Assembly: GCA_005843825.1 (NCBI GenBank)
Contig: SZXX01000024.1
Span: 1 to 40,681, forward strand
Direction of reading: 5' to 3'
Source: Chlorobium sp.
Lineage (GTDB): Bacteria > Bacteroidota > Chlorobiia > Chlorobiales > Chlorobiaceae
DNA length: 40,681 bases
The notes beneath the pieces are model-generated. The model saw nothing but the letters and a program-made list of their open reading frames with translations. It was not told the origin of the DNA and searched no databases. Each line of letters begins with the position of its first letter. Position 1 is the stretch's first letter. Both the position numbers and the translations under genes were made by a program. Of the stretch, positions 835 to 17,022 are shown in pieces.

Positions 835-1998
835 ATGGGTCTATCAAATGAAATGAAAAATTTGAGTGAAGAAATACTTGATTCATTCAAAGGTCGCGTA
901 AAGGATAATGCAGACCTTGTTGCAAGTGTTGGAAACAAACTTCACCAGTTTCGCAGTGAGCAGCAGCAAACAGCTAAAAAAATACAGGCAAATGCAGCAG
1001 AATTAAAAGATGATCTTGCTGTTGCAGAAAAAGATAGATTAAAAAAGTATAATCAATTGATTGGATCCATACAGTCAGACATTAAAAGCATAGAGAAGGA
1101 TGTTAAAAGTTCGAAGTCATCAACGAAGGGATTGATGCAGGATTTTTCTAAGGCAAGAAAAATTATGAGCAGTGATCTTGATAAATTTTTTTCAGAAGAA
1201 AATAAATCACGTGCCGAGAATGAACAATCTAGAATGTCTGATTATCAACTGTACATTGAAAAATTAAGTGAGGAAGTATCAAGTATTTTTAATTATACCA
1301 ATGAAATGCTTGAGAAATTTGCAAGTGAACATAAGGAAATGTCTGCTGAATTAAGTGAAGAATTGAGTAAGAATAAAAAAGAGAGATTTGAGCATACTCA
1401 TGCATTGATTAAAAGCATTCAGAGCAGACTGGCTGAGATAAGTAGTGAAAATGTTGATGCTGCACGCAAGCTGAAAAATAATTTAAACCATGGTGAAACA
1501 GAAAGACTGAAAGAATACAATGCCTTGTTTGACAGGATAAGCAGTGAAATCACAGAAATGAGCAAGTCAACAGCAACATTGCTTGATAATTTTTCAAAAG
1601 ACAGGTCTAAGGGAGCTGAGCATTGGAAAGAGATGCAGGACAAGATAGCCGCAATAAGGAGTAATAAACAGGAAGCGAGTCCCAAGAAAGCTGAAAAAGT
1701 CGTTGAGAAAGATGAAATAAAAGCAGCAGTTGTTGTCAAGAAAGAGTTGCCTGTCATTGAAGAAAAACCTCAGCTCTTACCAGTCGAGAAGCCAAAAGTA
1801 AGCGAAGAGAGTACCTTGGAAGATAAAATCCTGATTTACATTAATAATCATCCTCAAGGTGTTAAGGTTTCAGATATGGAAGAGCCTTTGCATGAAACAA
1901 GAATGAAGATAGGCTTTGCTGCAAAATGTCTTCTCGATGCCGCTAAAGTATCAAAGGTTGAAAATCTTTATTATCCTATAACGAAATCTTATCATTGA
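835..1998 (+). CDS. GvpC-like coiled-coil protein with a possible C-terminal winged helix
   Basis: The protein has 387 residues. Residues 1-275 are continuous amphipathic helix with degenerate repeats: blocks starting near R68, R133, R184 and R224 share a pattern of R, then Y or H, then hydrophobic residues every three to four positions, and three of them lead to a phenylalanine followed by SK or SE (F104, F162, F253). GvpC of cyanobacteria is likewise a repeat-built helical protein that coats and stiffens the GvpA shell; the similarity here is of type rather than clear sequence. Residues 280-325 are a K/E/P-rich linker. Residues 328-383 look like a compact helix-helix-helix-wing domain (KILIYINNHPQGVKVSDMEE onward). 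ATG 835 has GGAG at 825-828. GvpC-like is a moderate-confidence call. Confidence 0.6.
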   Translation: MGLSNEMKNLSEEILDSFKGRVKDNADLVASVGNKLHQFRSEQQQTAKKIQANAAELKDDLAVAEKDRLKKYNQLIGSIQSDIKSIEKDVKSSKSSTKGLMQDFSKARKIMSSDLDKFFSEENKSRAENEQSRMSDYQLYIEKLSEEVSSIFNYTNEMLEKFASEHKEMSAELSEELSKNKKERFEHTHALIKSIQSRLAEISSENVDAARKLKNNLNHGETERLKEYNALFDRISSEITEMSKSTATLLDNFSKDRSKGAEHWKEMQDKIAAIRSNKQEASPKKAEKVVEKDEIKAAVVVKKELPVIEEKPQLLPVEKPKVSEESTLEDKILIYINNHPQGVKVSDMEEPLHETRMKIGFAAKCLLDAAKVSKVENLYYPITKSYH

Positions 1999-2117: not shown

Positions 2118-3044
2118 ATGCGTGTTCATGAATATGATAGAGAGATGAATACAGTGCTTGAGCCGAAGGCCATGCCTAATTTCGTCGAGACAGACTACAT
2201 CAGGGATATTACAAACCGTGGTCTTACCTATATGAAAGCAGGATTTCCTGTTCATTTCAGAGGCCCATCGGGAACTGGAAAAACTACCGTTGCCTTGCAT
2301 CTGGCAAGTAAGATAGGGAGGCCAGTGGTCATTATTCATGGTGATTCTGAATACAAAACATCAGATCTCATCGGAAGTGAACAGGGATACAAGTATAGAA
2401 GGTTAGATGATAATTTTATTCACTCTGTACATAAGTTAGAAGAGGATATGACAAAGCAATGGGTCAACAATCGGTTGACCATTGCTATTAAAAAAGGATT
2501 TACATTAGTCTATGACGAATTTACACGTTCACGTCCAGAAGCTAATAATGTTCTTCTTCCTATTCTTCAAGAAAAGATGTTAAGTACCTCTTCATCAAAT
2601 GAAGATGAGTATTATATGAAAGTACATCCGGAATTCAGAGCAATATTCACCTCTAACCCTGAAGAATATGCCGGAGTTAACAGGACTCAGGATGCGCTCA
2701 GAGATAGAATGGTTACGATGGATCTGGATTATTTTGATTACGAGACTGAATTGATGATCACTCATTCAAAATCTGGCATGTTGTTTGAAGATGCCGAAAA
2801 AATTGTTAAAATTGTAAGAGGTTTGCGTGAATCCGGTAAAACGGAGTTTGATCCTACAATCCGTGGCTCGATTATGATTGCCAAGACCTTGAATGTCCTT
2901 AATGCAAGGCCTGATAAGAATAATGAGCAATTTAAAAAAGTTTGTCAGGATATTTTAACATCAGAGACGAGCCGTGTTGGATCAAAGACAAATCAGGAAA
3001 GAGTCCGAAGTATTGTCAATGAGCTCATTGAGTTACATTCATAA
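2118..3044 (+). CDS. gvpN: Gas vesicle protein GvpN (MoxR-like AAA+ ATPase)
   Basis: GvpN is an ATPase needed for normal gas-vesicle growth in several organisms. The 308-residue product has a Walker A motif GPSGTGKT at 49-56, a Walker B LVYDEF at 130-135 and a sensor-1 asparagine in FTSNPEEYAGV near residue 180, followed by the typical RDRMVTMDLDY segment. Length and motif order match GvpN, and the gene sits in an unambiguous gvp cluster. The start is uncertain: neither ATG 2118 nor ATG 2148 (residue 11) has a well-spaced ribosome binding site. A large inverted repeat lies just upstream at 2006-2062. Confidence 0.95.
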   Translation: MRVHEYDREMNTVLEPKAMPNFVETDYIRDITNRGLTYMKAGFPVHFRGPSGTGKTTVALHLASKIGRPVVIIHGDSEYKTSDLIGSEQGYKYRRLDDNFIHSVHKLEEDMTKQWVNNRLTIAIKKGFTLVYDEFTRSRPEANNVLLPILQEKMLSTSSSNEDEYYMKVHPEFRAIFTSNPEEYAGVNRTQDALRDRMVTMDLDYFDYETELMITHSKSGMLFEDAEKIVKIVRGLRESGKTEFDPTIRGSIMIAKTLNVLNARPDKNNEQFKKVCQDILTSETSRVGSKTNQERVRSIVNELIELHS

Positions 3045-3073: not shown

Positions 3074-3385
3074 ATGAGGATATATAATGCAAAAAAAGGG
3101 GTTAATAATATTAAAACCCTGCAAACGGTCACTTCATTATCTAGTAAGGAACAAGGAACAGCTGATTTTCTTAATTTATATATGCTTGAAAAAGAAAAAC
3201 AGCGTTTAATGAGTGAAGAGATAAAAATATTGCGTAGACTTGATTTTGTTCACAATAGGCTGAAAATAATTCAGAATATTTATGAACATAATTCTCATTT
3301 ACTTCAAAATAAAAACTATCAACAGAATCAATATGACGAAGATAATGTAAGGACAGGATTCACAACAATGCAAATAGAGTACTAA
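3074..3385 (+). CDS. Small coiled-coil gas-vesicle cluster protein
   Basis: This 103-residue protein of unknown function lies 29 bases after gvpN and 11 bases before a GvpA/J-family gene, so it is co-transcribed with them. Its middle (about residues 30-75, LYMLEKEKQRLMSEEIKILR and onward) is a charged helix likely to form a short coiled coil. The N-terminus starts MRIYNAKKG and the C-terminus is Q/N-rich and probably disordered. No signal peptide, membrane segment or catalytic motif is visible. Small helical proteins of this kind often serve as adaptors, but there is no sequence evidence for a specific role. Confidence 0.7.
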   Translation: MRIYNAKKGVNNIKTLQTVTSLSSKEQGTADFLNLYMLEKEKQRLMSEEIKILRRLDFVHNRLKIIQNIYEHNSHLLQNKNYQQNQYDEDNVRTGFTTMQIEY

Positions 3386-3396
3386 ATTATAGCATC

Positions 3397-3702
3397 ATGC
3401 CTGAATTAAAACATGCTGTTAATGCGACAGGCCTTGCCGATATACTTGAAAGAGTTCTCGATAAAGGTATTGTAATAGCTGGAGATATTAAGATACAGAT
3501 TGCTGATATTGATTTGTTGACAATTAAAATCAGGCTCTTGATTGCATCTGTAGACAAAGCTATGGAGATGGGTATAAACTGGTGGCAGGAAGACCCATAT
3601 CTTTCAACGACAGCAAAAGAAAAAGAACAAGAACAAAAACAGTTACAGGATGATTTGCAGCAGCGCTTGGAAAAACTCGAAGCAATGAATAAGATAAAAT
3701 AA
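3397..3702 (+). CDS. GvpA/GvpJ-family gas vesicle protein (GvpJ-like)
   Basis: Residues 12-60 carry the gas-vesicle structural family signature: LADILERVLDKGIVIAGDI, then a beta-like IKIQIADIDLL and an amphipathic helix IKIRLLIASVDKAMEMGI. The sequence GINWWQEDPYLS and a charged coiled tail extend beyond the usual length of about 70 residues for the major shell protein GvpA. This argues for a minor structural paralogue (GvpJ, or the related GvpM/GvpS) that caps or nucleates vesicles rather than the main shell protein. There is no strong ribosome binding site. The stop codon TAA at 3700-3702 shares a base with the gvpH start. Confidence 0.88.
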   Translation: MPELKHAVNATGLADILERVLDKGIVIAGDIKIQIADIDLLTIKIRLLIASVDKAMEMGINWWQEDPYLSTTAKEKEQEQKQLQDDLQQRLEKLEAMNKIK

Positions 3703-4238
3703 TGGGGTATGCCATGAAAAACGATAAGAATAGTAGCGGTAAAGGTGAATCAGAAGCGGAATTCGATTTTTTAGGTCTTGGAGGCCTTTTTAAGGGGATA
3801 GAAAAATTGGTGGATCTTGCAGGCAAACTTGAACAGAGCGGTACAGTAAATCGTGAAGGAGAGATCAATTTAGATCATTTAAAACAAGGAATGAAGGGTG
3901 TCTACGGATTTACTATCAAGTCGGCTATTGGCGGCACTCCTAAAGTAGAAACTTTTGGAAATATTGTCAAAACACCTCAAGGGCCTAAGGTTAATGAAGA
4001 GCGTGAACCTATAACCGATATATTTGATGAGTCGGATGAAGTTGTAATTATTGCTGAAATGCCTGGTATTGAGGAAACAGATATTGTTATAGATCTACAT
4101 GACGATATCCTTGAGATATCAACAAAAAATGCGAAAAAGAGTTATAGAAAGGAGCTTTTGTTACCTATTAAAGCTGTAGATAATACTTGTCAACAAAAAT
4201 ATACTAATGGCATTCTTGAAATAAGAATTAAAAAATAA
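3702..4238 (+). CDS. gvpH: Gas vesicle protein GvpH (Hsp20/alpha-crystallin type)
   Basis: The 178-residue product has a glycine/leucine-rich N-terminal part (FLGLGGLFKGIEKL), a GvpH-typical GMKGVYGFTIKSAIGG near residues 64-80, and an alpha-crystallin domain at about 105-178 containing the diagnostic VVIIAEMPGIEETDI and NGILEIRIKK strands. Hsp20-type GvpH is thought to keep aggregation-prone Gvp subunits soluble in the cytoplasm. The start at 3702 overlaps the preceding stop by one base (TAATG); ATG 3714 is an alternative, preceded by a weak GGGG. The gene lies four bases before the Get3-like ATPase. Confidence 0.9.
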   Translation: MGYAMKNDKNSSGKGESEAEFDFLGLGGLFKGIEKLVDLAGKLEQSGTVNREGEINLDHLKQGMKGVYGFTIKSAIGGTPKVETFGNIVKTPQGPKVNEEREPITDIFDESDEVVIIAEMPGIEETDIVIDLHDDILEISTKNAKKSYRKELLLPIKAVDNTCQQKYTNGILEIRIKK

Positions 4239-4242
4239 CACA

Positions 4243-5181
4243 ATGCCGCTGACGGGTTTAGAGAGTAAAGACCTTATAATGATCATATTTGGCGGGAAGG
4301 GCGGTGTTGGAAAAACGAGTTGTTCTGTTGCCTGTGCTATCGGTTTGGCTGAAAAATTTAAAACATTAGTGATTTCTACTGATCCGGCACACTCAGTTTC
4401 GGATAGTCTTTGTCAGCACATAGGGTTCAGACTACAGACCGTTCAGAAGGTCATGAACCTTACTGCAATTGAGATATCTGCAGACAAGGCATTTCAGCAG
4501 TTTAAAGAAGAGCATGAAAATGAACTGATAAAACTATTCGATACATCAACAAATTTCGATGCAGAAGATATTCAGCAGATGATGAGTCTTTCAATACCGG
4601 GTATTGATGAAGTCATGAGTTTTAAGATCATCATTGATCTGATAGAAGAGAATAATTATGAAAAGTACGTTGTTGATACGGCTCCTACTGGCCACGCATT
4701 GCGACTCTTGTCATCTCCAGAGCTTTTAGATGAGTGGATTAAGATGGCGGCAAAAATGAGGTGGAAGTATCGTTATATGATTGAATCGTTTTCTGGCGAT
4801 TACAAGGAGGATGAGGCCGATGTCATGCTGCTGAATCTAAAAAAAACAGTAAAACGTATAGCAGCACTTTTCAGCAGCAGACAAAAATGTGAATTCATTC
4901 CCGTTTGTATTCCTGAGGATATGGCTATTATGGAGACGGAGAGACTGTTGAAAGAGCTTCAGCACTTTAAGATTACTTCACGCCAGATGATTATGAATAA
5001 TGTTATGGAGTCAGATGAATCTGGATTTTGCCGGCAAAGAAAGGCGGCTCAGTCAAAGTACATACTCAAGGCAGCTGATGTTTTTAAACAATTACAGGTA
5101 GTGACTGTTCCTGTATTCCCTGAAGAAATTAAGGGAGTGCTAGCATTGATGAAGTTAAAAGAAGTGCTTTTTGATAGATAG
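4243..5181 (+). CDS. ArsA/Get3-family ATPase of the gas-vesicle cluster
   Basis: The 312-residue product is a deviant-Walker-A (SIMIBI class) ATPase. Visible motifs are GKGGVGKT at 18-25, the switch-I-like STDPAHS at 45-51 and the switch-II-like [12 protein letters not shown] at 145-156. This set defines the ArsA/Get3 group; DTAPTGH is especially characteristic. Eukaryotic Get3 delivers tail-anchored hydrophobic proteins, whereas ArsA energises arsenite export. No ars genes are nearby, and the flanking genes are gvpH and a Cdc48-like ATPase, so a role in handling hydrophobic Gvp subunits is more likely; this is inference. An alternative start is ATG 4279, which begins right before the P-loop. 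Confidence 0.88.
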
Positions 5182-5203
5182 CGACATAAATGAGGAATGC
5201 GTA

Positions 5204-7345
5204 ATGAGCAAAGAAGAGTTAGTTTTGAAAGTAAAAGAGGCGATTGTCAAGGATGTAGGAAGAGCGATTGCCAGAATTGATCCTCAAGATATGTCTCATC
5301 TCTGTTTAGAGTCTGGTGACATCGTCATGATCGAAGGCAAGCGTCCTACCCCTGTAAAAATACTTCCCTCCTACCCCGAAGACAGAAACAAGGGGGTTAT
5401 TCAGATTGATGGAATAACCCGTGAGAATGCCAGCGTCGGAATAGATGAAAAAGTAATAATAAAAAAAACATCATTTCGCCAGGCTTCAAAAATAAAGCTA
5501 AAGCCAGTAACAAAATCCAGCACACTGGTAAGGGCTGACGATGCTAGATATATTGGTTCACTTATTAATGGCTTGCCAGTCACAAAAGGCGATAAAATAA
5601 AGGCAACTCTTTTCGGTTCCCGCTCAATATACTATACAATTACCTCAACAGCTCCTGATGGAGTTGTGCTGATACATCCGGATACGTCGATTCAGCTTGA
5701 GTCATCAAAACAGAACGAGGAAAGATCCAATAAGGTAACGTATGAGGACATAGGGGGACTCGGTAATCAGGTGCAGCGAATTCGCGAAATGATTGAATTA
5801 CCCCTTAAATACCCTGAAATATTTGAAAGACTGGGCGTTGAACCACCCAAAGGTGTCTTTTTGTATGGCCCTCCGGGTACTGGCAAAACATTGATTGTTA
5901 GAGCAGTTGCTCAGGAGACAGATGCATACTTTATCAATATTTCCGGCCCTGAGATTATGGGCAAGTATTATGGCGAAAGCGAAGCCAGGGTGCGTAATAT
6001 CTTTGCAGAGGCTCAGGCTCATGCGCCATCAATCATTTTTATTGATGAAATAGATGCCATCGCTCCTAAGAGAGAGGATATGGGCGGTGAAAAGCAAGTG
6101 GAAAAAAGGGTAGTAGCTCAACTCCTGTCATTGATGGACGGATTGGAGTCAAGAGGTAAAGTCATTGTCATTGGGGCAACCAATATACCCAATTCTATTG
6201 ATCCTGCACTGAGAAGACCTGGCCGTTTTGATCGTGAGATATCCATTTCAATTCCCGATAAAAAGGGAAGACTTGAAATCCTTCATATCCATACAAGGGG
6301 CATACCCTTGTCAGAAGATGTCGATATGTCGAAAATAGCTGATATTACGCACGGGTTTGTTGGTGCTGATTTAGAAGCACTTGCGCGTGAAGCAGCTATG
6401 ACAGCGTTGAGAAAAATTCTTCCAAAGATTAACTTTGAAATATCTGAGATTCCATACGAACTTCTCATGCAGTTGGAAGTTACAATGGACAACTTTATGG
6501 ATGCAATGAAGGAAGTTGAACCATCTGCTATAAGAGAAGTATTTGTGGAGGTGCCTGATGTTAAGTGGGAAGATGTAGGTGGGCTTGAAGAAATCAAGCA
6601 GGCCTTGAAAGAAACTGTGGAATGGCCTTTAAAGTATGCTGAACTCTTTAAAAAAACAGATACAAAACCCCCGAAAGGAATAATTCTTTATGGTAAGCCT
6701 GGTACGGGTAAAACATACCTGGCAAAAGCTCTCGCGAGTGAAAGTGGCGTAAATTTTATCTCGGTTAAAGGGCCGCAGATACTCAGTCGTTTTATTGGCG
6801 AATCTGAAAAGGGTGTCCGTGAGCTCTTCAGGCTTGCAAAACAGTCAGCACCGACGATCCTTTTCCTTGATGAAATAGACAGTCTCACACCACGCAGAAG
6901 GAATGATGGAACGGAATCAGGGGTTATCGAAAGGGTGATCAGTCAATTTCTTACAGAGATGGATGGTATTGAAGAGCTGAAAGGAGTTACAGTACTAGCA
7001 GCAACAAACAGGATTGATATTATTGATCCTGCATTATTGCGTTCAGGAAGATTTGATCTTATGTTTGAAGTTCCATTACCCGATAATAAGACGAGAGAGC
7101 AGATTTTTAAGATTCATACAAAAAACATGCCACTTGGATCTGATGTAAACTTGACACTTTTGGCTGGAAAAGTAGAAAATATGACTGGTGCTGATATACA
7201 GTTTATTTGTCAAAAAGCAAAGATGTGTGCTATTCGTGAAATTATAGATAAAAACGATTCTTCAGAAAACGCAGAAATTTATATTCTTGAAAAGCACTTC
7301 GAAGAGGCAATACAAGTTGTATTGCTTCAAAACGGGATATTCTAA
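5204..7345 (+). CDS. Cdc48/VAT-like double AAA+ ATPase
   Basis: The 713-residue product has a Cdc48-type N-domain (about 1-185; [20 protein letters not shown]) and two AAA modules. D1 has Walker A GPPGTGKT near 222 and Walker B FIDEID near 279; D2 has GKPGTGKT near 497 and LFLDEID near 552. Both carry the arginine-rich [18 protein letters not shown] second-region motif. Cdc48/VAT proteins are hexameric unfoldases that extract or remodel protein complexes. ATG 5204 is preferred because TGAGGA at 5191-5196 is seven bases upstream; the upstream TTG at 5171 would overlap the ATPase gene. No clear C-terminal HbYX motif is seen, so coupling to a proteasome is unlikely. A 60-base sample is about 42% G+C, higher than the neighbouring GvpF/L genes. 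Confidence 0.92.
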
Positions 7346-7356
7346 ATAAGTAATGA

Positions 7357-8376
7357 ATGAATAATCAAGGTATATATATCTATGGGTTTGTTCCTGATAA
7401 TTGTATAGATAATGTTAAAAGTCTATTGTTGGAATCTGGAATATACTCAATAGAATACGGTGATATTTCTGCGCTTGTCTCAGATACAACTATCAATAAA
7501 ATTGAATATTTGAATAGGGATGAGCTCGCACATCTGCTTGTTGATCATCAACAAAAGATAGAAAAAATAATGAATAGCGGCTGTTCTAAAATTATACCAA
7601 TGAAACTCGGTACAGTAGTTAGTTCAGGGAATGATGTGATTAAAATAATAAAAAATGGATTTAATCTGCTTAATCAGACTTTTGAGAGTATAGATGGAGT
7701 CGAGGAAATAGATGTGGCAGTTGTTTGGAGTAATTTCGCTGATGTTATTGCGGGAATATCAGAAAAGCCACAAATAAGACATATGAAGGAGAGTATAGCT
7801 GACAAAGAAAGTCCTGATCCTGTGGATAGTATTAATATTGGTAAAATGATTAAAGAAAAAATTGATCATAAAAATAATAAAGTAAATATTGATATTGTTA
7901 ATTCCTTGATGTCATTTTGTGTTGATTTGAAAAAGCACGATACAATGAATGATGAGATGCCTGTAAATTGCGCCTTCCTTGTAAAAAAAGAAAATCGAAA
8001 TCAATTTATGGAAATGATTGATAAACTTGATATAAAGTATTCTGATAAATTGAATTTTAAGATAGTTGGCCCTCTTCCTTGTTATAGTTTTTATACCATT
8101 GAAAGTAAAATTATAAAGAAAGATGATATAGAGCATGCTAAAAAATTACTTGATATTGATTTATTAAATTCTGAATATGATCTTAAAAAAGCATATCGAA
8201 TTAAAGCATCATTAACTCATCCGGATAAAATAATTGATTCTAAAGAAGAGAATGCGGATAATTTTATCGAGGCAAATAATGCGTATAAACTACTGCTTGA
8301 TTATTCAAGTATTATAAATAAATCGCCTGAAACTGTATTATCAGAGCCATTATACCTTGTTAAAATTAAAAACTGA
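7357..8376 (+). CDS. GvpF/L-family protein fused to a C-terminal J-domain
   Basis: Residues 1-250 are a GvpF/L protein: it opens with IYIYGFVPDN, has IPMKLGTVVSS near residue 80 (the family's P-x-R/K-x-G-T segment) and ends with the GPLPCYSF signature. GvpF/L proteins bind GvpA-type subunits and are essential accessory proteins. About residues 258-320 then resemble a J-domain: AKKLLDIDLL, DLKKAYRIKASLTHPDK and FIEANNAYKLLLDY, with the essential HPD triad at H288-P289-D290. J-domains stimulate the ATPase of DnaK/Hsp70, so the fusion could recruit DnaK to nascent vesicle proteins. It starts 11 bases after the Cdc48-like gene. Confidence 0.88.
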   Translation: MNNQGIYIYGFVPDNCIDNVKSLLLESGIYSIEYGDISALVSDTTINKIEYLNRDELAHLLVDHQQKIEKIMNSGCSKIIPMKLGTVVSSGNDVIKIIKNGFNLLNQTFESIDGVEEIDVAVVWSNFADVIAGISEKPQIRHMKESIADKESPDPVDSINIGKMIKEKIDHKNNKVNIDIVNSLMSFCVDLKKHDTMNDEMPVNCAFLVKKENRNQFMEMIDKLDIKYSDKLNFKIVGPLPCYSFYTIESKIIKKDDIEHAKKLLDIDLLNSEYDLKKAYRIKASLTHPDKIIDSKEENADNFIEANNAYKLLLDYSSIINKSPETVLSEPLYLVKIKN

Positions 8377-8377
8377 T

Positions 8378-9151
8378 ATGCAAAAAGATGGTAAATATGT
8401 TTATTGTATAATTGCAACAAGCTATGAATGCAATTTTGGACCTATAGGAATAGGTGGTAGAGGCGATTTGGTTAATTCTATTGGATTTGATGGTTTAAGT
8501 ATGGTTGTGAGTGATCATCCTCTCAATCATTTTGTTTTAAATCCAGAAAACATTCTTGCTCATCAAAAAGTAATAGAAGCGGTAATGAGCCTGTTTAATA
8601 GTGTTATCCCTGTCAGGTTTGGTACTGTTGCTGCAACTCCAGATGAAATACGCAATCTGTTAGATAGACGATATAGTGAATTATCTGAACTTCTTGAACG
8701 TTTCGAAAATAAAGTTGAATATAATATTAAGGGATCCTGGCGAAATATGGGGGTTGTCTATAAGGAGATCGATAAAGAAAATAAAGAGCTGAAAAAGTTA
8801 AGGAGCAAAATAGAGAATCTAAATGATGAGAAAAAAAGAAATATATTGATAGAAGAAGCAGGACATTTTATTGAAGAAGCAGTACAAAAAAAGAAAGAGA
8901 TTGAAACTGAAGAAATTATAACGGCTTTTCGTAAAACTGTAGTTGCCTATAAAAATAATAGGACTACAGGTGAAGCAATGTTCATGAATACAGCATTTTT
9001 AATAAATAAAGGTCGAGAAGTTGAATTTGATAATATTTTGACAGCACTCGGAGAAAGATTTAAGGATAGAAGTGACTATTATTGTACTGGGCCTTTGCCA
9101 ATATTTAATTTTATTGACTTACGCATCCTTCCGGAAAAATGGGAACTTTAA
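8378..9151 (+). CDS. GvpF/L-family gas vesicle protein, second copy
   Basis: The 257-residue product has the GvpF/L layout: N-terminal KYVYCIIATS, IPVRFGTVAAT near residue 80, a long charged helical middle (about 120-190) and the terminal signature GPLPIFNF. The family consists of two-domain accessory proteins that interact with GvpA and with other minor Gvp proteins during assembly. I chose ATG 8378, one base after the preceding stop; a TTG at 8357 would overlap that gene by 20 bases. It is closest in N-terminal sequence to the next gene, so these two probably arose by tandem duplication. Confidence 0.9.
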   Translation: MQKDGKYVYCIIATSYECNFGPIGIGGRGDLVNSIGFDGLSMVVSDHPLNHFVLNPENILAHQKVIEAVMSLFNSVIPVRFGTVAATPDEIRNLLDRRYSELSELLERFENKVEYNIKGSWRNMGVVYKEIDKENKELKKLRSKIENLNDEKKRNILIEEAGHFIEEAVQKKKEIETEEIITAFRKTVVAYKNNRTTGEAMFMNTAFLINKGREVEFDNILTALGERFKDRSDYYCTGPLPIFNFIDLRILPEKWEL

Positions 9152-9951
9152 ATCAACAGTCTATTAAACAAGATATGGGTACAGATCTTGTAAAAGAAGG
9201 AAAATACATATACTGTATTATTCGTAATAGCTGTGATATTAATTTTGGGGGGATTGGTATAGGAGTTCGACATGACGCCGTTTATGGAGTTGCGTATAGA
9301 GATATATGTGCTGTAGTCAGTTCTTCACCTGTTGTTCAATATGAGGCAAGACGTGCAAACATGATTGCACATCAAAGGGTTCTTGAAGAAGTGATGAAGA
9401 AGTTTAATGTATTGCCAGTTAGATTTTCAACAATTTCACCACACGATAACGATGAGGCAATAATTCGTATACTGACCGAAGAATATGCAAGGCTTGATGA
9501 ATTGCTTAATAAAATGAAAGGGAAGAAAGAGTTGGGTCTTAAAGTAATGGCTATTGAAACAAAGATATATGAATATATTATTCTTAAATATGATAACATA
9601 AGATCACTTAGAGATAAACTGATCAATCAACCACCAGATAAAATTCACTACAAACGCATTAAAATAGGTGAAATGGTTGCAGATGCCCTCAAAGAAGAAA
9701 TTGAAAGTTTTAAAAATCAGATTCTTGATACGTTGAATCAAATAGCTGATGATGTTAAGATTACTGATAATTATGGAGATCTCATGATACTTAATGCTGC
9801 TTTTCTTATAAAAGAAATAAATGAATCTCTTTTTGATGCTGCTGTTAATAATCTCGATAAAAAATATGGAGATATTATGACATTTAAATATGTTGGCACG
9901 TTGCCACCATATAATTTTGTTAATCTATCGATTAATACGAAAGGAGACTAA
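9139..9951 (+). CDS. GvpF/L-family gas vesicle protein, third copy
   Basis: The 270-residue GvpF/L protein has GKYIYCIIRNS at the N-terminus, LPVRFSTISP in the middle and GTLPPYNFVNL near the end. Its N-terminal half is strongly similar to the preceding paralogue (both have NFG followed by IGIG). The ATG at 9139 overlaps the previous gene by 13 bases and has GGA four bases upstream; ATG 9175 would align better with the paralogue's start and is an alternative. Its last codons contain the AAGGAG that serves gvpG, so translation of the two is probably coupled. Confidence 0.9.
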   Translation: MGTLNQQSIKQDMGTDLVKEGKYIYCIIRNSCDINFGGIGIGVRHDAVYGVAYRDICAVVSSSPVVQYEARRANMIAHQRVLEEVMKKFNVLPVRFSTISPHDNDEAIIRILTEEYARLDELLNKMKGKKELGLKVMAIETKIYEYIILKYDNIRSLRDKLINQPPDKIHYKRIKIGEMVADALKEEIESFKNQILDTLNQIADDVKITDNYGDLMILNAAFLIKEINESLFDAAVNNLDKKYGDIMTFKYVGTLPPYNFVNLSINTKGD

Positions 9952-9955
9952 CATT
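9941..9955 (+). promoter_or_regulatory. Ribosome binding site and probable AUU start codon of gvpG
   Basis: AAGGAG at 9941-9946 is followed, six bases later, by ATT at 9953-9955. Translation from there gives FILDDILFAPLNGL, which matches the usual start of GvpG (M followed by F-L/I-D-D-L). No ATG, GTG or TTG lies at a suitable distance: the nearest in-frame ATG upstream is 63 bases away, inside the previous gene. The spacing of one base after the previous stop is the same as for two other genes of the cluster. Confidence 0.65.
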
Positions 9956-10189
9956 TTTATTTTAGATGATATATTGTTTGCGCCATTAAACGGGCTTATA
10001 TTTGTAGCAAAAAAAATTAATGATGTTGTTGAGAAAGAGACATCAGATGAAGGGACTGTGAAAGAAAGGCTTATGGCACTGCAGCTTAGATTTGAATTGG
10101 ATGAAATAAATGAAGAAGAATATGACAGGGAAGAGGATGACCTTCTCCGAAAACTTGAGCAAATCAGAGTAGACAAGCAAAGTCGTTGA
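9953..10189 (+). CDS. gvpG: Gas vesicle protein GvpG, probably started at AUU
   Basis: GvpG is a small helical accessory protein that, with GvpF/L, is needed for vesicle formation. The product of 78 residues reads FILDDILFAPLNGLIFVAKK at the N-terminus, then a charged helix with KERLMALQLRFELDEINEEE and YDREEDDLLRKL, the family hallmark. An upstream ATG at 9890 would add 21 residues unlike GvpG that overlap the preceding gene in another frame, so it is rejected. The start is most likely ATT at 9953, behind a strong AAGGAG. A G-to-T sequencing error at 9955 (ATG to ATT) is the alternative. Confidence 0.85.
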   Translation: MFILDDILFAPLNGLIFVAKKINDVVEKETSDEGTVKERLMALQLRFELDEINEEEYDREEDDLLRKLEQIRVDKQSR

Positions 10190-10252: not shown

Positions 10253-10525
10253 ATGAGTAAAGTAATCGAGGTCAGAAATGCTGTCATTAGATTTCTGAAA
10301 GAAAATATTGAAACAGATGATGTGACAGTCATTAGAGTTGAAAAAACAGGAGAAACGTGGAAAACCGTTGCGGAGGTTTATGAGGAAGATTCATTTTTAA
10401 AATCAATGAATCTTCCCCCAAAAAAAGTAAGGTTATTTTACTCGGTTGTCGTTGACTCTAAAATAGAAATAATTTCATTTACAAGACTGACTTCATATGA
10501 TGATTCAGAAAGTGAAAATAATTAA
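10253..10525 (+). CDS. gvpO: Gas vesicle protein GvpO
   Basis: The 90-residue product matches the GvpO family: an N-terminal helix (VIEVRNAVIRFLKEN), a segment GETWKTVAEVYEED where the tryptophan and E-V-x-E are conserved, then RLFYSVVVDSKIEIISFTRL, equivalent to the usual YEV-x-LD-x-x-G-E-x-x-Y-x-R strand pair. GvpO is an essential small accessory protein in haloarchaea. GGAG at 10243-10246 places ATG 10253 six bases downstream. The 63-base gap from gvpG is one of the longer ones in the cluster, but no terminator or promoter is evident in it. Confidence 0.88.
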   Translation: MSKVIEVRNAVIRFLKENIETDDVTVIRVEKTGETWKTVAEVYEEDSFLKSMNLPPKKVRLFYSVVVDSKIEIISFTRLTSYDDSESENN

Positions 10526-10542
10526 TTATTATTACTAATACC

Positions 10543-11340
10543 GTGAATTTAGATCAAAACAATCTGATATATCTCTATTGCCTGACGGCTTCACCATACG
10601 TGCAAATTAATCTCACAGAGGATTTAAATATATATAGCATAGAAAGTAATAGGCTGTTTATAACAGTTAAGAATGTGTCAGAAAATGAATTTTCCGAAGA
10701 TAATATTAAGAAAAATTTATCAAATGAAGCTTGGCTTGATAAACAGGTTAGAGATCATATTTCCGTGATAGGTAAAATAATGGAGACAGAAACAGTCTTG
10801 CCTTTTAATTTTGGTACAATATATAAATCCGAGGAAAGCCTTAAACAGTTTGTAGATAAATATCATGTTGATTTTTTCAAAACCCTGAAATATCTTGAGA
10901 ATAAAGAAGAGTGGTCAGTAAAGATATATTGTGATAAAATAAAAATAATAGAAAATATAAGTATTCTAAGTAAAAATATTTCAGATATTGAGTCTCAGAT
11001 AATATCAAGTTCGCCTGGAAAATCTTATATTTTGGGTAAGAAAAAAAATGAAATTATTGCCAAGGAAATAAATGATATATATAATAGTTGTTCCAGGCAA
11101 ATATTTACCAAACTTAAAACGGTAGGAGAGGAGTATAGGTTAAATACTCTTCTTTCAAACGACGTATCAGGCAGAGACGAAGATATGATTGTAAATGCTA
11201 CATTCCTGATAAAAAATGAAAATATTGAAAACCTTGAAAACATATCGGATCAATTAATTATTGAATATAAAAATATTGGTTTGATTCTTGAACTTACAGG
11301 CCCTTGGCCTCCGTATACATTTATCAAATTAACTAATTAA
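10543..11340 (+). CDS. GvpF/L-family gas vesicle protein, fourth copy
   Basis: The 265-residue GvpF/L protein starts at GTG 10543, with LIYLYCLTASP at the N-terminus, LPFNFGTIYKS in place of the usual PxRFGT, and a classical GPWPPYTFIKL end. The middle is very A+T-rich: I count 7 G or C in the 60 bases at 10,921-10,980. There is no visible Shine-Dalgarno sequence before the GTG, and gvpO ends 17 bases upstream, so translation may depend on coupling. It is more divergent from copies two and three than those are from each other and shares the GPWPPY ending with the fifth copy. Confidence 0.88.
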   Translation: MNLDQNNLIYLYCLTASPYVQINLTEDLNIYSIESNRLFITVKNVSENEFSEDNIKKNLSNEAWLDKQVRDHISVIGKIMETETVLPFNFGTIYKSEESLKQFVDKYHVDFFKTLKYLENKEEWSVKIYCDKIKIIENISILSKNISDIESQIISSSPGKSYILGKKKNEIIAKEINDIYNSCSRQIFTKLKTVGEEYRLNTLLSNDVSGRDEDMIVNATFLIKNENIENLENISDQLIIEYKNIGLILELTGPWPPYTFIKLTN

Positions 11341-11341
11341 T

Positions 11342-11542
11342 ATGCAAAATGACTTCTACGACATAAATAAAGAAATTACAATTTTAGATGCTCTTGATCG
11401 TGTTTTAACCAAAGGAGTTGTCATAACTGGTGATATTGTTATTTCAGTAGCAGATATAGATCTGATATATGTCGGTTTGAGGGTTTTACTTAGTTCAGTT
11501 GAAACAATGAAGAAGAATCAGCGATTAATTGATATATCATAA
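11342..11542 (+). CDS. Second GvpA/J-family gas vesicle protein (GvpS/GvpM-like)
   Basis: This 66-residue protein contains the gas-vesicle structural domain almost alone: ILDALDRVLTKGVVITGDIV, ISVADIDLIYVGLRVLLSSV and ET. The combination KGVV-x-x-GDIVISVA-x-x-DLIY with a V-G-L-R helix resembles minor shell paralogues such as GvpS or GvpM rather than GvpA. It starts one base after the stop of the preceding GvpF/L gene. Unlike the first copy at 3,397 it has no extended tail. Minor GvpA paralogues are thought to nucleate the conical tips. Which named paralogue it is cannot be settled by eye. Confidence 0.87.
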   Translation: MQNDFYDINKEITILDALDRVLTKGVVITGDIVISVADIDLIYVGLRVLLSSVETMKKNQRLIDIS

Positions 11543-11555
11543 TTATATATTTCTT

Positions 11556-12305
11556 ATGTCTTTGATTATATATGCTTTGATTCAAAATGGACAAAAAAAT
11601 AGTTCTATAAAAAAATGTATTGATACTTTTTCTGAGGAAATAGAAATAAACTTAAAAATAATTAATTATAAGGAACTCTCAGCTGTATTCTCAGTTGAAG
11701 TTCAAAAAGTTGAGAAAGCGGATAAGGCTGATTTTATTAAATATGCTGAAATTATTGATAAGATATCAAAAACATGTACACTATTGCCCATGAGATATGG
11801 ATCTCTTGTTACCTCATACGATGATTTATATGCATTATTGGATAAAAATTACAGCGCATTTCTTGAGAGTATACATAAGATAAATGGTAAGGAAGAGTAT
11901 TCTGTAAAGGTACTTTTCTCTTCAAAAAACCAAGATAATATTATAAACAATAATCTTGGCGATGTCTCACTTAAAGTGCCGAATATATTAATGGGTACTT
12001 CAGACAGTAAGCAATATTTATTGGAAAAATATAAAAAACATACCATAGAAGAACGTCGCAATAAATATATAGAAAAGCTTAAATTATCTTTCCTTGATGA
12101 AGTTCGTAAGTTGACTGAATGTGTTGAATTTAATAAAACGCTTACATCTGCATTTATTATAGATGCTGTTGTTTTGATTGAAAAGTATAAAAAAGAAAAA
12201 CTTCTTGAAGGTATAGACAATCTTCGAAAAATGTATCCTGAAAATAATATAATCATCACCGGTCCTTGGCCCCCATATAATTTTGTTAACATTAATATTC
12301 AGTAG
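11556..12305 (+). CDS. GvpF/L-family gas vesicle protein, fifth copy
   Basis: The product has 249 residues. It opens SLIIYALIQNG, equivalent to the family's YIYGII strand, has LPMRYGSLVTSYDD near residue 85 and the signature GPWPPYNFVNI at the end. The start is ATG 11556, 14 bases after the previous stop; a TTG at 11529 would overlap the upstream gene. It lies between a GvpA/J paralogue and gvpK, a placement in which a GvpL is often found. Its sequence is the least charged of the five at the N-terminus and is again A+T-rich. Confidence 0.88.
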   Translation: MSLIIYALIQNGQKNSSIKKCIDTFSEEIEINLKIINYKELSAVFSVEVQKVEKADKADFIKYAEIIDKISKTCTLLPMRYGSLVTSYDDLYALLDKNYSAFLESIHKINGKEEYSVKVLFSSKNQDNIINNNLGDVSLKVPNILMGTSDSKQYLLEKYKKHTIEERRNKYIEKLKLSFLDEVRKLTECVEFNKTLTSAFIIDAVVLIEKYKKEKLLEGIDNLRKMYPENNIIITGPWPPYNFVNINIQ

Positions 12306-12307
12306 AC

Positions 12308-12652
12308 ATGGATGAAAACAAAATTATATTTTCTTCCGGTTCTATAGGTGAAATCAAAGAGGAACTGGAAAAAATTCAATACGGTAATCAAGGAAGAATA
12401 AATGCAACACCTGAAAATGTCGAATCAGGTTTGGCTAAACTTGTCTTGACTCTTATTGAATTGATAAGAAAGTTGATGGAAAAACAAGCAATGCGTAGAA
12501 TTGAAGGTGATTCCTTGACTGAAGAAGAAATTGAAAACCTTGGTGAGACACTTATGAAACTTGAAAATAAAATGGATGAATTAAAAAAAATATTTAATCT
12601 TACAGATAAGGATTTAAACCTTAATCTTGGCCCATTAGGTGATTTGATATAA
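12308..12652 (+). CDS. gvpK: Gas vesicle protein GvpK
   Basis: The 114-residue product matches GvpK: an N-terminal variable part followed by NATPENVESGLAKLVLTLIE, LIRKLMEKQAMRRIEGDSLT and a helical E-E-I-E-x-L-G-x-x-L-M-K-L end. GvpK is an accessory protein required for vesicle formation in some bacteria and is widely used as a marker of gvp clusters. It starts two bases after the fifth GvpF/L gene and is the last gene of the cluster. Its stop codon (12,650-12,652) lies one base from the end of the opposing regulator gene, leaving no room for a terminator. Confidence 0.93.
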   Translation: MDENKIIFSSGSIGEIKEELEKIQYGNQGRINATPENVESGLAKLVLTLIELIRKLMEKQAMRRIEGDSLTEEEIENLGETLMKLENKMDELKKIFNLTDKDLNLNLGPLGDLI

Positions 12653-12653
12653 G

Positions 12654-14048
12654 TTATTCGGCCTCTCTTTTTACTATATTAATTCCGTATTTCTTTATTT
12701 TTCTGATAAGAACATGACGGCTTATACCAAGAAAATTAGCAGCTAAAGATTGATTATATTTTGCATCATCCAGAGCTTTTCGAATATGTTCAATTTCATG
12801 TTGAACAAGTTTCACACCACTAACATCATTTATAGGTAATTTATTATTATGTTCGGGTAAACTAAAATCATCTGCTTTAAGTGAGTTACCACTACAGAGG
12901 ATAATAGCCCTTTCAGTCATATTTCTCAACTCTCTTACATTTCCAGGAAAACTATAGCAAACAAGTTTTTTAAATACATCATCAGAGATATTCTTAATGG
13001 GTTTATTGATTTTTTTGGAAAATTCTTCTGTGAAATCAATAAGTAAAGGGACAATATCTTCAGTTCGTTCCCTGAGAGGAGGAATATGAATATGCAGAGT
13101 GTTGAGTCGGTGAAGCAGGTCCAGTCTGAATTTCTTTTCTTCTACAAGACGATCAAGGTCAATATTTGTTGCAGAAATTACTCTAAAAGTTGTGTTTTTT
13201 AACTTTGTATCACCTACCCGCGTTATTACTTTCTCTTCAATCGCACGCAATATTTTTGATTGAAAAATAATAGGCATATCAGCTATTTCATCAAGAAAAA
13301 GAGTGCCTTCATTACAAAGTTCAAATAATCCTTTTTTATCACATACTGCGCCAGTAAATGCACCTTTTTTATGACCAAAAAATTCACTTTCCATGAGAGT
13401 CTCAGTTATTGCACTGCAGTTAATAGCGCCAAAATAGTTCTCACTTTTTGGTCCCATATAGTGAATTATTCGAGCAATAATCTCTTTGCCTGTTCCGCTC
13501 TCACCGGTTATCAGGACGTTAACATCAGGATATTGTGAGGCTGTTTTGGCGAGTTCAAAACTTTTCATGATCTGCGGACTATTTCCAATCACATGACGAC
13601 CTATTGACGCTTGAATATTTTTAGTAATCAAGGAGTGTTTTTCTTCCATGTGCGCCAGCTTTTGCTGCATGGAAAGATACTTTTGTGTGCGTTCGATAGC
13701 TATTTGTAAATCTATAAACCTTAAGGGTTTACGCATATAGTCAAAAGCCCCAAGCCTTATCGCCACAATGACGGTATCCATATCGCCATGTGCCGATACC
13801 ATAATAACTTCCATGTTTGGGTACAGGGATTTTACTTTTTTTAAAACATCCAATCCATTTGCTCCCGGCAGTCGAATATCAAGAATAAGCAGATCAATTT
13901 CATTTTGGCTTAATATCTCATATCCATCCCTGACGGTGTTTGCCGAATAAGAGATGAATCCTGCATTTTCAAAATAATCTTTAAGTTCTTCTGTGAAATC
14001 AATCTCATCATCGAGTATAAGAACATTAATTATGCTATAATTTTTCAT
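12654..14048 (-). CDS. NtrC-type sigma-54-dependent response regulator
   Basis: The 464-residue product has a receiver domain (acidic D13-D14, phospho-acceptor D57 in LILDIRLPG, S85, K107), a sigma-54 activator AAA+ domain with Walker A GESGTGKE at 182-189, an intact GAFTGA loop at 229-234 that contacts sigma-54, and Walker B TLFLDEIAD at 249-257, then a Fis-type helix-turn-helix near the end (QSLAANFLGISRHVLIRKI). All functional residues appear present, so it should be an active transcription activator. The gene overlaps the histidine kinase by 14 bases and converges on gvpK. Its target is probably the gvp cluster, but that is inferred from position. Confidence 0.93.
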   Translation of the reverse strand: MKNYSIINVLILDDEIDFTEELKDYFENAGFISYSANTVRDGYEILSQNEIDLLILDIRLPGANGLDVLKKVKSLYPNMEVIMVSAHGDMDTVIVAIRLGAFDYMRKPLRFIDLQIAIERTQKYLSMQQKLAHMEEKHSLITKNIQASIGRHVIGNSPQIMKSFELAKTASQYPDVNVLITGESGTGKEIIARIIHYMGPKSENYFGAINCSAITETLMESEFFGHKKGAFTGAVCDKKGLFELCNEGTLFLDEIADMPIIFQSKILRAIEEKVITRVGDTKLKNTTFRVISATNIDLDRLVEEKKFRLDLLHRLNTLHIHIPPLRERTEDIVPLLIDFTEEFSKKINKPIKNISDDVFKKLVCYSFPGNVRELRNMTERAIILCSGNSLKADDFSLPEHNNKLPINDVSGVKLVQHEIEHIRKALDDAKYNQSLAANFLGISRHVLIRKIKKYGINIVKREAE

Positions 14049-17019
14049 TATGCCCTTTGTTTGGAAGTGTAATTATTACTGATGTACCTTTCATAGGAGT
14101 ACTCTCAATTTTAAGAGTTCCATTCATCTCCTTAATTATACCATAACAGATTGACAGGCCAAGACCGGTACCCTTTCCTTCATCCTTTGTAGAAAAAAAC
14201 GGGTTCATTATATTTTCCTTAAGATTCTCGGTTATACCTATTCCATTATCTTTAACAATAATTATTACAGACCCTATGGTATTGAATGCACGTATATCTA
14301 CATTCATATCATAGTCTAACTGTGTTATATTCTTTTTTTCTTCAATTGCATCGGCAGCATTTTTTAATAAATTTAAAATTACTTCTTCAAATCTATATAT
14401 ATTCCCATTAACTAATAAGTTATTGTTTTCAGGAAAAAAATTTAATTTTATAAACTTGTTTTTATATTTCTCTGAAACCATTTTTATCGCATTTCTTATG
14501 CTTTTATTAATGTTGATAATAGAGGAGATATAGCTTTTATCGGATCTTGAAAAAAGCCTGATATTATCTATAATGCTTTGTACTCTTAAAATATTTTCAA
14601 ATATCCTTGCTGAGTTTATTTTAATTGACTTTTTACTTGCCCAGTTATCCTTTTCAGACTCCATTACAATTTTTTCAATAATTAAGCCTATATTGTTTAT
14701 TGGTTGGTAGATTTCGTGGGCAATACCTGAAGCCATTTCACCTAAACTAATCAGTCTTTTTGCTTGAAAAAGTTCACTTTCAATTATTTTACGCTGTGAG
14801 ATATCTCGTATAATAATCATATATGCAGATGGTGCTCCATTTTCATCTTGAATTAAAGCGGCGCTTATTTCTGCAGAGTATACTGAAGTGTTTTTTTTCT
14901 TTAAAATTATTTCCTTGTTTTGTATGAGACCTTCATGAAGTGTAGTTGCAAATATTTCATTTATTATTGCATTATTATCTGAATAAACAATTGTTGAAAA
15001 AGGCATTCCTATAAGGTCAGTTTTATTGTTGGTTCCATAAAGTTCCAGCCCAATATCAGAAATACTGGTTATAACTTTTTCAAGATTAGTTGTTATAATG
15101 CTGTCTGGTGAGGCCGTAATTAATGTTTGGTATTTTATATCTAATTGACGACGCGTTTCGGCTTCCTTATTTATTTCATTGATTTCTGTAATAAAAACTG
15201 CGATGGATGCTATTATTTTATCTTTACTAAAGCAAGGAAAAGCGGAAATATTATAAATACACTTTTCGCGCTTATTGTCATGATAATTGGTTTTAACGCA
15301 TTCATCTTTAAAATAAGTTGGTTCACCAGTATTAAAAACTAATTCAAATCTTGATTTTCTGTATTCTGCAACTTCCGATGAAAAAAGTTTATAAAAATTT
15401 TCATTTGATATTGTTATTAAATCTTTACTGTAATTTGATATAAATTCCTTATTAGCATCAAGTATCCTTCCATTTAAAGCAATAATACATACCGGTTCAG
15501 TGCTTAACGTTAAAATAGTATTAAGGTTATCTGTATTTATTTGAATAGAGATATCATCATTTTTATATTCTGTAATATCAATGCTGACACCCATGTATCG
15601 ATTAATATTTCCATCATTATTAAGCTCCGGAAATCCTTGATTCAACAGTAATCTCAAGCTTCCATCTGGTTTAAAGACATGAGATACCACATTAAACTTT
15701 TCTTTTTTATCAATTGCAGTTTGTATAATATTTTCCGTCAATTCTCTATCACCAGGTACAATAGACTCACGCCATGCTTTAAAAGTTGTTTCACCTGAAT
15801 ACATATGTAGCCCATACAGTGTACGGAGTTCATCATACCAATTCATTTTACCATTATTGATATTCCACTCCCAAATACCAGCATCAATAGCTTTTAATGG
15901 TACAAATAAAGCCACGACATAATCTTTTTGCGGGCTGTAGACAGTAATATCAAACCACTTATTTTTTTCATGCATATAAAACTCAAAACGCTCTGAGGTT
16001 CCATGTTGTGCTATTCGTCCAAATTTTATCAAAAGATCAGGATAAGATTGTATAAATTCAGGAAGAACCTCAGACATTCTTTTGCCTTCAATAGTATCGA
16101 ATCCTGTTATTCTTTTATAATTCTGGTTGACAACTTCATGAATGAAATCAACAGCATGACCATTATCGTAAATCATCCTGCAATAAGCATATCCGTTGGT
16201 CGTATTATTGAACAGGTTCCGATATCTGGCCTTCTTTTCAAGGAGTTCCTTTTCAGATGGATTAAGCGTTGTCATGTTTACAGATACAAACAGTAACTTC
16301 TCTATCTCTTCAGAAAGAGAAGGGACTGGATAGATGGTATGAAGGTAGATATCCTTTTCAAGTTCAGTTTCAAATGCACCTATAGCCTTTGTGCGTAAAA
16401 CCTCATCAACCTTGTTTTTTCCAACTACTGCAATTGTCGATGGGAATACATTGAATACTGATGTGCCGTAGAGATCCTCATTTTCAATACAAAATTTTTT
16501 GTTGAATGCATCATTGGCAGAAAGGATTCTCCCTTCTCGATCAATAAGAATAACAGGGTCAGGAAATGTATTCAACAGAGCAGAGATTGAGCTGTCGACG
16601 ATCTTTTTTATTGACGTTGATCCATCCCGAAAAATGAAGGCAGTTCCAGCGATCCTCTCCTGCTCATCAAGAAGGGGAATAATCTCTCCAGTCACCAGTT
16701 TTTCTGCAGAACAATATCCTACAAAAAAGGTATCAGACCCTATGCGGCTTACCTTATTTTCAGCCAGGGTTTTCTTAACGCTCTGTCCTATGAGGTCTCT
16801 TAGATGTTGACTCAGAGTGGGGAAAACGGCATCAATCGGCTTACCTGCAGCATTGTTCTGACTCATTCCAATAAAATATTCCGCCCGCTTGTTCAAATAG
16901 CTTACGAATCCGAGGTTATCGGTGATGATGACACTCTCCTCAATGTTATTCAGAATATTGATACAGGGCGTATTGATTACACTGGATGTTTTTTCCATAT
17001 CGGTAATGAATGGTACCAT
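14035..17019 (-). CDS. Soluble multi-PAS sensor histidine kinase
   Basis: The 994-residue product has about six PAS or PAS-like units (near residues 20, 155, 270, 390, 505 and 645 to 770 in total), no membrane segment and no signal peptide, so it senses a cytoplasmic cue. The kinase core has the H-box MASGIAHEIYQPINN (phosphorylated His near 768), N-box NLLKNAADAIEE, G1 DNGIGI and G2 KGTGLGLSICYG. The H-box has tyrosine where related NtrB-like kinases usually have asparagine or arginine. ATG 17019 is chosen because AAGGAG on the minus strand (17,027-17,032) lies seven bases upstream. It is the cognate kinase of the overlapping NtrC-type regulator. Confidence 0.92.
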   Translation of the reverse strand: MVPFITDMEKTSSVINTPCINILNNIEESVIITDNLGFVSYLNKRAEYFIGMSQNNAAGKPIDAVFPTLSQHLRDLIGQSVKKTLAENKVSRIGSDTFFVGYCSAEKLVTGEIIPLLDEQERIAGTAFIFRDGSTSIKKIVDSSISALLNTFPDPVILIDREGRILSANDAFNKKFCIENEDLYGTSVFNVFPSTIAVVGKNKVDEVLRTKAIGAFETELEKDIYLHTIYPVPSLSEEIEKLLFVSVNMTTLNPSEKELLEKKARYRNLFNNTTNGYAYCRMIYDNGHAVDFIHEVVNQNYKRITGFDTIEGKRMSEVLPEFIQSYPDLLIKFGRIAQHGTSERFEFYMHEKNKWFDITVYSPQKDYVVALFVPLKAIDAGIWEWNINNGKMNWYDELRTLYGLHMYSGETTFKAWRESIVPGDRELTENIIQTAIDKKEKFNVVSHVFKPDGSLRLLLNQGFPELNNDGNINRYMGVSIDITEYKNDDISIQINTDNLNTILTLSTEPVCIIALNGRILDANKEFISNYSKDLITISNENFYKLFSSEVAEYRKSRFELVFNTGEPTYFKDECVKTNYHDNKREKCIYNISAFPCFSKDKIIASIAVFITEINEINKEAETRRQLDIKYQTLITASPDSIITTNLEKVITSISDIGLELYGTNNKTDLIGMPFSTIVYSDNNAIINEIFATTLHEGLIQNKEIILKKKNTSVYSAEISAALIQDENGAPSAYMIIIRDISQRKIIESELFQAKRLISLGEMASGIAHEIYQPINNIGLIIEKIVMESEKDNWASKKSIKINSARIFENILRVQSIIDNIRLFSRSDKSYISSIININKSIRNAIKMVSEKYKNKFIKLNFFPENNNLLVNGNIYRFEEVILNLLKNAADAIEEKKNITQLDYDMNVDIRAFNTIGSVIIIVKDNGIGITENLKENIMNPFFSTKDEGKGTGLGLSICYGIIKEMNGTLKIESTPMKGTSVIITLPNKGHNEKL

Positions 17020-17022
17020 CAA

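Follow-up and report, generated by a model that had tools for sequence, protein, structure and literature searches.

A GvpF/L gas-vesicle protein fused to a J-domain, a probable Hsp70 co-chaperone of gas-vesicle assembly in Chlorobiaceae

A gas-vesicle (gvp) gene cluster of Chlorobium sp. encodes a protein in which a complete GvpF/L domain is followed by a genuine J-domain. This protein, hereafter GvpF-J, is probably a dedicated class C Hsp70 co-chaperone of gas-vesicle assembly. The GvpF/L and J-domain families are both known and the novelty lies in the fusion itself, which already exists in public records under the label GvpL/GvpF family. No fusion of a gas-vesicle protein with a J-domain was described in the openly accessible papers searched. 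The open reading frame (7357-8376, plus strand) is located in a stretch of 40,681 nucleotides, here called the window, and its 339-residue translation matches the sequence quoted in an earlier note on this DNA. The features of the protein and of the cluster are listed in Table 1.

Table 1. Positions in the window of GvpF-J, its parts and the neighbouring gvp-cluster genes.
Feature	Position	Strand	Evidence
GvpN-like MoxR-type AAA+ ATPase	2118..3044	+	PF07728 1.7e-19; cluster position
GvpA-family protein, GvpJ-like	3397..3702	+	PF00741 5.5e-17
Hsp20-type small heat-shock protein	3702..4238	+	PF00011 3.2e-5, above cut-off
Single-domain ArsA/Get3-type ATPase, 312 aa	4243..5181	+	PF02374 8.9e-76
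Cdc48/p97-type AAA+ ATPase (CDC48_N, CDC48_2, two AAA), directly upstream of GvpF-J	5171..7345	+	Pfam
GvpF-J, GvpF/L protein with C-terminal J-domain	7357..8376	+	ORF, translation, Pfam, orthologues 34-75% identical
GvpF/L domain, residues 5-246, end GPLPCYSF	7369..8094	+	PF06386 4.5e-47; 6l5d Z 17.8, 4qsg Z 17.0
J-domain, residues 255-322 (Pfam match 264-315)	8119..8322	+	PF00226 7.6e-8; AlphaFold; 6rzy_A Z 8.6, 5nro_B Z 8.1
HPD triad, residues 288-290	8218..8226	+	Invariant in 15 aligned and 3 more divergent orthologues; YPD in deleted-cluster remnant
Conserved C-terminal strand, residues 332-338, replacing helix IV	8350..8370	+	DSSP on model; alignment
GvpF/L paralogue without J-domain	8378..9151	+	PF06386 9.6e-58; tail PEKWEL
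GvpF/L paralogue without J-domain	9139..9951	+	PF06386 2.2e-62
GvpG, true start probably downstream	9890..10189	+	PF05120 3.4e-19
GvpO-like protein	10253..10525	+	PF05800 2.2e-4, just below cut-off
GvpL-type paralogue without J-domain	10543..11340	+	PF06386 2e-48; outside GvpF group of tree
GvpA-family protein, GvpS/M-like	11342..11542	+	PF00741 4.9e-16
GvpF/L paralogue without J-domain	11529..12305	+	PF06386 2.2e-35
GvpK	12308..12652	+	PF05121 2.9e-35

Domain architecture and predicted structure

The GvpF/L domain is complete, as the earlier note had claimed, with the Pfam match covering profile positions 1-244 of 245. The signature GPLPCYSF is followed by 94 further residues. The note had recognised helices II and III and the HPD triad in this tail, and the AlphaFold model confirmed them, but its estimate of about 60 residues was too short and a helix I has to be added. 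As the note also said, the tail is absent from the cluster's four remaining GvpF/L proteins, none of which extends more than 12 residues past the signature.

The DnaJ profile search that had been proposed for the tail was significant: GvpF-J scored 32.8 bits against PF00226, for which the curated cut-off is 27.8 bits, and the tail searched alone yielded an E-value of 1e-8. The NCBIfam DnaJ models concurred, a DjlA profile also matched weakly, and a phmmer search of the tail against PDB sequences retrieved J-domain proteins with a best E-value of 1.3e-5. The PF00226 match ends at profile position 55 of 63, and the canonical helix IV is absent from the tail in the profile match, the AlphaFold model and the alignment, leaving helices I-III only. 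We take helix IV to be dispensable for membership in the J-domain family, and membership therefore rests on the HPD triad, helices I-III and the profile. The Pfam matches comprised GvpL_GvpF and DnaJ only, with no DnaJ C-terminal domains or zinc finger, and GvpF-J is assigned to the class C J-domain proteins because no other part of DnaJ is present. Helix II contains KKAYR and is basic, with a net charge of +1 to +4 over 15 residues in all intact copies.

An AlphaFold model built with 15 orthologues (mean pLDDT 84.6, pTM 0.74) placed helix I at residues 255-265, helix II at 273-287 and helix III at 296-322, so that the hairpin anticipated from the sequence, with HPD in the II/III loop, was obtained in the model and by superposition. 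The last strand (332-338) has the consensus EPLYLVKIK, and certainty was lower in the loop at about 291-300 and in the stretch at about 321-330 (pLDDT ~60). In Foldseek searches the N-terminal part matched GvpF crystal structures, and the tail matched J-domains with probabilities of 0.98 to 1.00 but weak E-values (>0.01). Structural realignment superposed the GvpF part on 6l5d with 3.2 A over 235 residues and the tail on 5nro_B with 2.2 A over 61 residues (Z-scores in Table 1). Z-scores of about 8 are modest for helices if taken alone; here they are concordant with the sequence match.

Conservation, distribution and origin of the fusion

Full-length orthologues of GvpF-J were present in 15 of the 86 Chlorobiaceae genomes; in addition, the gene was split over two contig ends in one genome (G029) and reduced to a remnant in another (G026). 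Every sampled Chlorobiaceae genome with a full-size gvp cluster carried it. Across 15 aligned orthologues with 34-75% identity to the window protein, the invariant tail residues included H288, P289, D290, A279, A284, F303 and Y310, those outside the triad being mostly J-domain core positions. The triad was also retained in three orthologues more divergent than the aligned 15, and the question whether HPD is conserved in other gas-vacuolate Chlorobi is thus answered by its occurrence in every intact orthologue. When five intact divergent orthologues were searched with the DnaJ profile, each scored above the cut-off (best E-value 1.5e-13, in G102); the proteins above it included those of P0002, L074, L075, L083, L020 and L018.

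Conservation was unevenly distributed along the tail, with a mean pairwise identity of 0.69 for helix II and HPD and 0.24 for the loop after HPD (291-300), in which position 292, corresponding to N37 of DnaJ, is not conserved. In six orthologue pairs dN/dS was 0.12-0.27 for residues 255-322, fairly close to the 0.10-0.15 of the GvpF part. These values come from a simple Nei-Gojobori count; the stretches compared are short, and in several pairs dS approaches saturation. The tail is under purifying selection, and since HPD is also invariant in the 15 orthologues, the tail is not a product of chance. Decay of the triad was seen only in G026, where nearly the entire gvp cluster is gone: the leftover, truncated copy (L082, G026:C33:105000-118000, positions 6394-7296) reads YPD, ends before helix III and has no match to the DnaJ profile. 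In G026 the remnant is closely followed by the gene (ORF MSSMAERVKKLFRQ) that in G025 comes after the intact cluster.

The fused form, with HPD, was also found in a genome from another family of the same order (G154), in one from another family of the same phylum (G102) and, with HPD intact, on plasmid pOA238_160 of the alphaproteobacterium Octadecabacter arcticus 238, which is a complete plasmid record. Spread outside Bacteroidota/Chlorobiota was judged from the plasmid collection alone, where one of 12 records was fused. A scan of genome contigs returned only two close Chlorobiaceae relatives, and no relative was found on viral contigs. Within the same order, gvp clusters of smaller size, with two or three GvpF/L genes, lacked the fusion, as did the cyanobacterial and streptomycete plasmid gvp clusters; a J-domain scan of 20 genomes with smaller gvp clusters found no J-domain in those clusters. 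With so many gvp clusters lacking it, the fusion is no general need of gas-vesicle assembly. A different type of fusion was observed in Bacteroidota genomes with a single GvpF/L match each, where long ORFs that in part resemble coiled coils have the GvpF/L domain at their C-terminus, as in L080 (G339:C1; ORF ending at about 2919) and L081 (G226:C1; 979-2697), and similar long ORFs are present in G229, G192, G274, G315 and G363.

The phylogeny of 53 GvpF/L domains, inferred after removal of the J tails, included 10 J-bearing rows. All 10 fell into a single clade (support 99/94, recovered in 100% of the bootstrap trees), nested on the GvpF side of the tree with the cyanobacterial and streptomycete GvpF rather than with GvpL; Octadecabacter formed a long branch. 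One J-bearing clade in a tree that excludes the tails is what a single fusion, kept since, would give, and a single event followed by vertical and horizontal spread appears to be the simplest reading of the tree. Independent fusions in each lineage found no support, given that the J-bearing GvpF domains are one clade.

The gvp cluster and its ATPase and heat-shock neighbours

The cluster in the window contains gvpN, gvpG, gvpK, a gvpO-like gene, two genes of the GvpA family and four further GvpF/L genes. The paralogue next to GvpF-J is listed from 8357, and orthologues and spacing suggest ATG 8378 as its start. The window contig starts just downstream of gvpA, and another contig, C2 (L091), ends inside a typical gvpA (MAVEKTIGSSSLVEVIDRILDKGVVV); near-identical gvpA copies probably caused the assembly break. 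Between gvpA and gvpN are genes for two helical proteins (196-807 and 835-1998, plus strand) with no Pfam match above the cut-off; they are possibly GvpC-like, and both G154 and G102 have similar genes at this location. A small gene after gvpN (3074-3385, plus strand) has no family match, and genes of similar size occur there in the same two genomes. Convergent to the cluster on the minus strand (12654-17022) are genes for an NtrC-type sigma-54 response regulator and a PAS-like histidine kinase, which may regulate it; in G102 (L075) a response-regulator pair precedes gvpA.

The CDC48_N domain was found in 15 of the 86 Chlorobiaceae genomes, all 15 of which contained GvpF-J (Fisher p 7e-16, ignoring shared ancestry). 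GvpF-J occurred without it in G074, whose contig breaks off some 1.2 kb upstream, and as the remnant in G026. Among these 86 genomes the Cdc48-type protein is thus seen only with GvpF-J, which makes it a candidate gas-vesicle factor, and it looks like one that is uncharacterised: no paper was found on a Cdc48-type protein in gas-vesicle clusters, and the Cdc48d in PMC6107691 is a non-specific Ni-NTA contaminant. That Cdc48 is an obligatory partner of the J-domain is made less credible by the Octadecabacter cluster, which lacks it. ArsA and Hsp20 have been described in gas-vesicle clusters, the ArsA homologues as two-domain proteins of about 600 residues (PMC2963123). The ArsA-family ATPase is single-domain here (312 residues), as it is in G102 and, judged by length, in G154. 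A similarity of GvpC to DnaK/DnaJ has been noted (PMC2270826) and is unrelated to the GvpF-J fusion.

Proposed function and comparison with known systems

It is an open question how the insoluble GvpA escapes aggregation and gets to the vesicle as it grows; GvpF is the leading chaperone candidate, and no general chaperone is named in the gas-vesicle reviews and interaction studies consulted. The shell protein GvpA is bound primarily by GvpF, which has been proposed to act as its chaperone until GvpG takes over (PMC11445434, PMC9501494). Since GvpF-J groups with GvpF, and binding of a GvpA-type shell protein is known for the GvpF of other organisms (PMC9501494, PMC11445434), GvpA or another GvpA-family protein would by analogy be its likeliest client.

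As for the Hsp70 side, DnaJ and GvpF-J are the only two proteins of the host genome (98% complete) with a J-domain above the cut-off, and the genome has one full-length DnaK. The latter retains KRIINEPTAAA, the site of R167, which acts with the aspartate of HPD (PMC5519331, PMC7289447). K23 and K26 of DnaJ, named by coevolution as DnaK-contact positions (PMC5519331), correspond to K278 and R281 in GvpF-J and likewise to K and R in the host DnaJ. These residues and the R167 site are compatible with a DnaK shared by GvpF-J and DnaJ. The DnaK residues N187, T189 and D208, which coevolve with DnaJ, are not clearly retained, the host DnaK differing around there; the DnaJ-DnaK interface is variable (PMC7289447). 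DnaK is the probable partner, and the idea in the earlier note that the fusion would physically link a shell-protein chaperone to DnaK is a sound inference.

Behind the proposal of a dedicated co-chaperone stand the fusion itself, a J fold with invariant HPD and basic helix II, the purifying selection on the tail, the single clade and the restriction to gvp clusters. The GvpF part would capture a GvpA-type shell subunit, which is hydrophobic, possibly already at the ribosome, and hold it soluble. Using helix II and HPD, the J-domain would then dock on DnaK and trigger ATP hydrolysis, upon which DnaK could clamp the subunit while it still adjoins GvpF. Nucleotide exchange driven by GrpE would free the subunit, which could then pass to GvpG, to GvpN and to the rib as it grows. 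In this scheme the sequence of steps and every contact are putative. The fusion suggests that a vesicle shell protein is passed directly to Hsp70 (DnaK). A broader idea, which we put forward tentatively and to which we give somewhat less than even chances, is that this gvp lineage has tied shell assembly to ATP-driven proteostasis, with GvpF-J, a private Cdc48/p97, the Get3/ArsA-type ATPase and Hsp20 forming one pathway that delivers, corrects or recycles the very hydrophobic shell subunit.

Alternatively, GvpF-J might act with the Cdc48-type AAA+ protein and Hsp20 in quality control or turnover, bringing in DnaK where shell protein is misfolded or in excess or where vesicles have collapsed, so that the material is extracted and recycled. 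The position of the Cdc48 gene directly upstream, its co-occurrence with GvpF-J in the Chlorobiaceae and the order Hsp20-ArsA-Cdc48-GvpF-J, retained in G154 and G102, would fit this, but the Octadecabacter plasmid cluster has GvpF-J without a Cdc48 or ArsA gene and the GvpF part groups with an assembly factor, and we regard such a role as unlikely. That the tail is a J-like structural or protein-protein module which has lost contact with DnaK, serving for instance in oligomerisation or in holding Cdc48 or another Gvp, seems quite improbable. The missing helix IV, the highly variable positions 291-300 beside HPD and the new conserved strand after the J-domain are what such a module might exhibit, yet H, P and D are each invariant in orthologues down to 34% identity and in three more divergent ones, despite being dispensable for the J-domain fold; moreover, helix II stays basic and the triad decays only where the cluster has been deleted. 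Apart from the draft state of the genome of which the window is a contig, nothing was found that would favour a mere chance resemblance, a frameshift or the artefactual joining of two genes during assembly. These explanations, or that of a single-genome oddity, can practically be dismissed because the architecture recurs in separately assembled Chlorobiaceae genomes, with 15 full-length copies, as well as in G154, in G102 and on a complete plasmid. An assembly co-chaperone thus is the reading we prefer for GvpF-J. With an Hsp70 switch built into a GvpF, GvpF-J offers a natural experiment in which the mutation of three residues can probe whether DnaK has a role in assembly, and it may be of use where gas vesicles are engineered into foreign hosts as ultrasound reporters.

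The closest known architecture is that of the Octadecabacter arcticus 238 protein WP_015497776, annotated merely as GvpL/GvpF family, which shares the two domains, HPD, a DnaJ match (2.3e-6) and the clade, whereas it is only 28% identical to GvpF-J and comes from the cluster without Cdc48 or ArsA. The solved GvpF proteins of Anabaena (6l5d) and Microcystis (4qsg) have the fold of residues 3-249 at 21% identity, the PF06386 domain, the gvp-cluster context and a place on the GvpF side of the tree, but at 237-244 residues they end at the GvpF domain and have no J-domain. The J-domain of DnaJ on DnaK (5nro) and that of the host DnaJ resemble the tail in helices I-III, the HPD loop and KKAYR in helix II. 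In contrast to DnaJ, GvpF-J has its J-domain at the C-terminus and lacks helix IV, the G/F region, the zinc finger and the DnaJ C-terminal domains, and client binding would come from the GvpF part. Class C J-domain proteins with a client domain of their own include Hsc20/HscB, auxilin and DjlA, in which the J-domain is likewise attached to a part of the protein's own that binds a client or a membrane; in GvpF-J, that part is GvpF/L.
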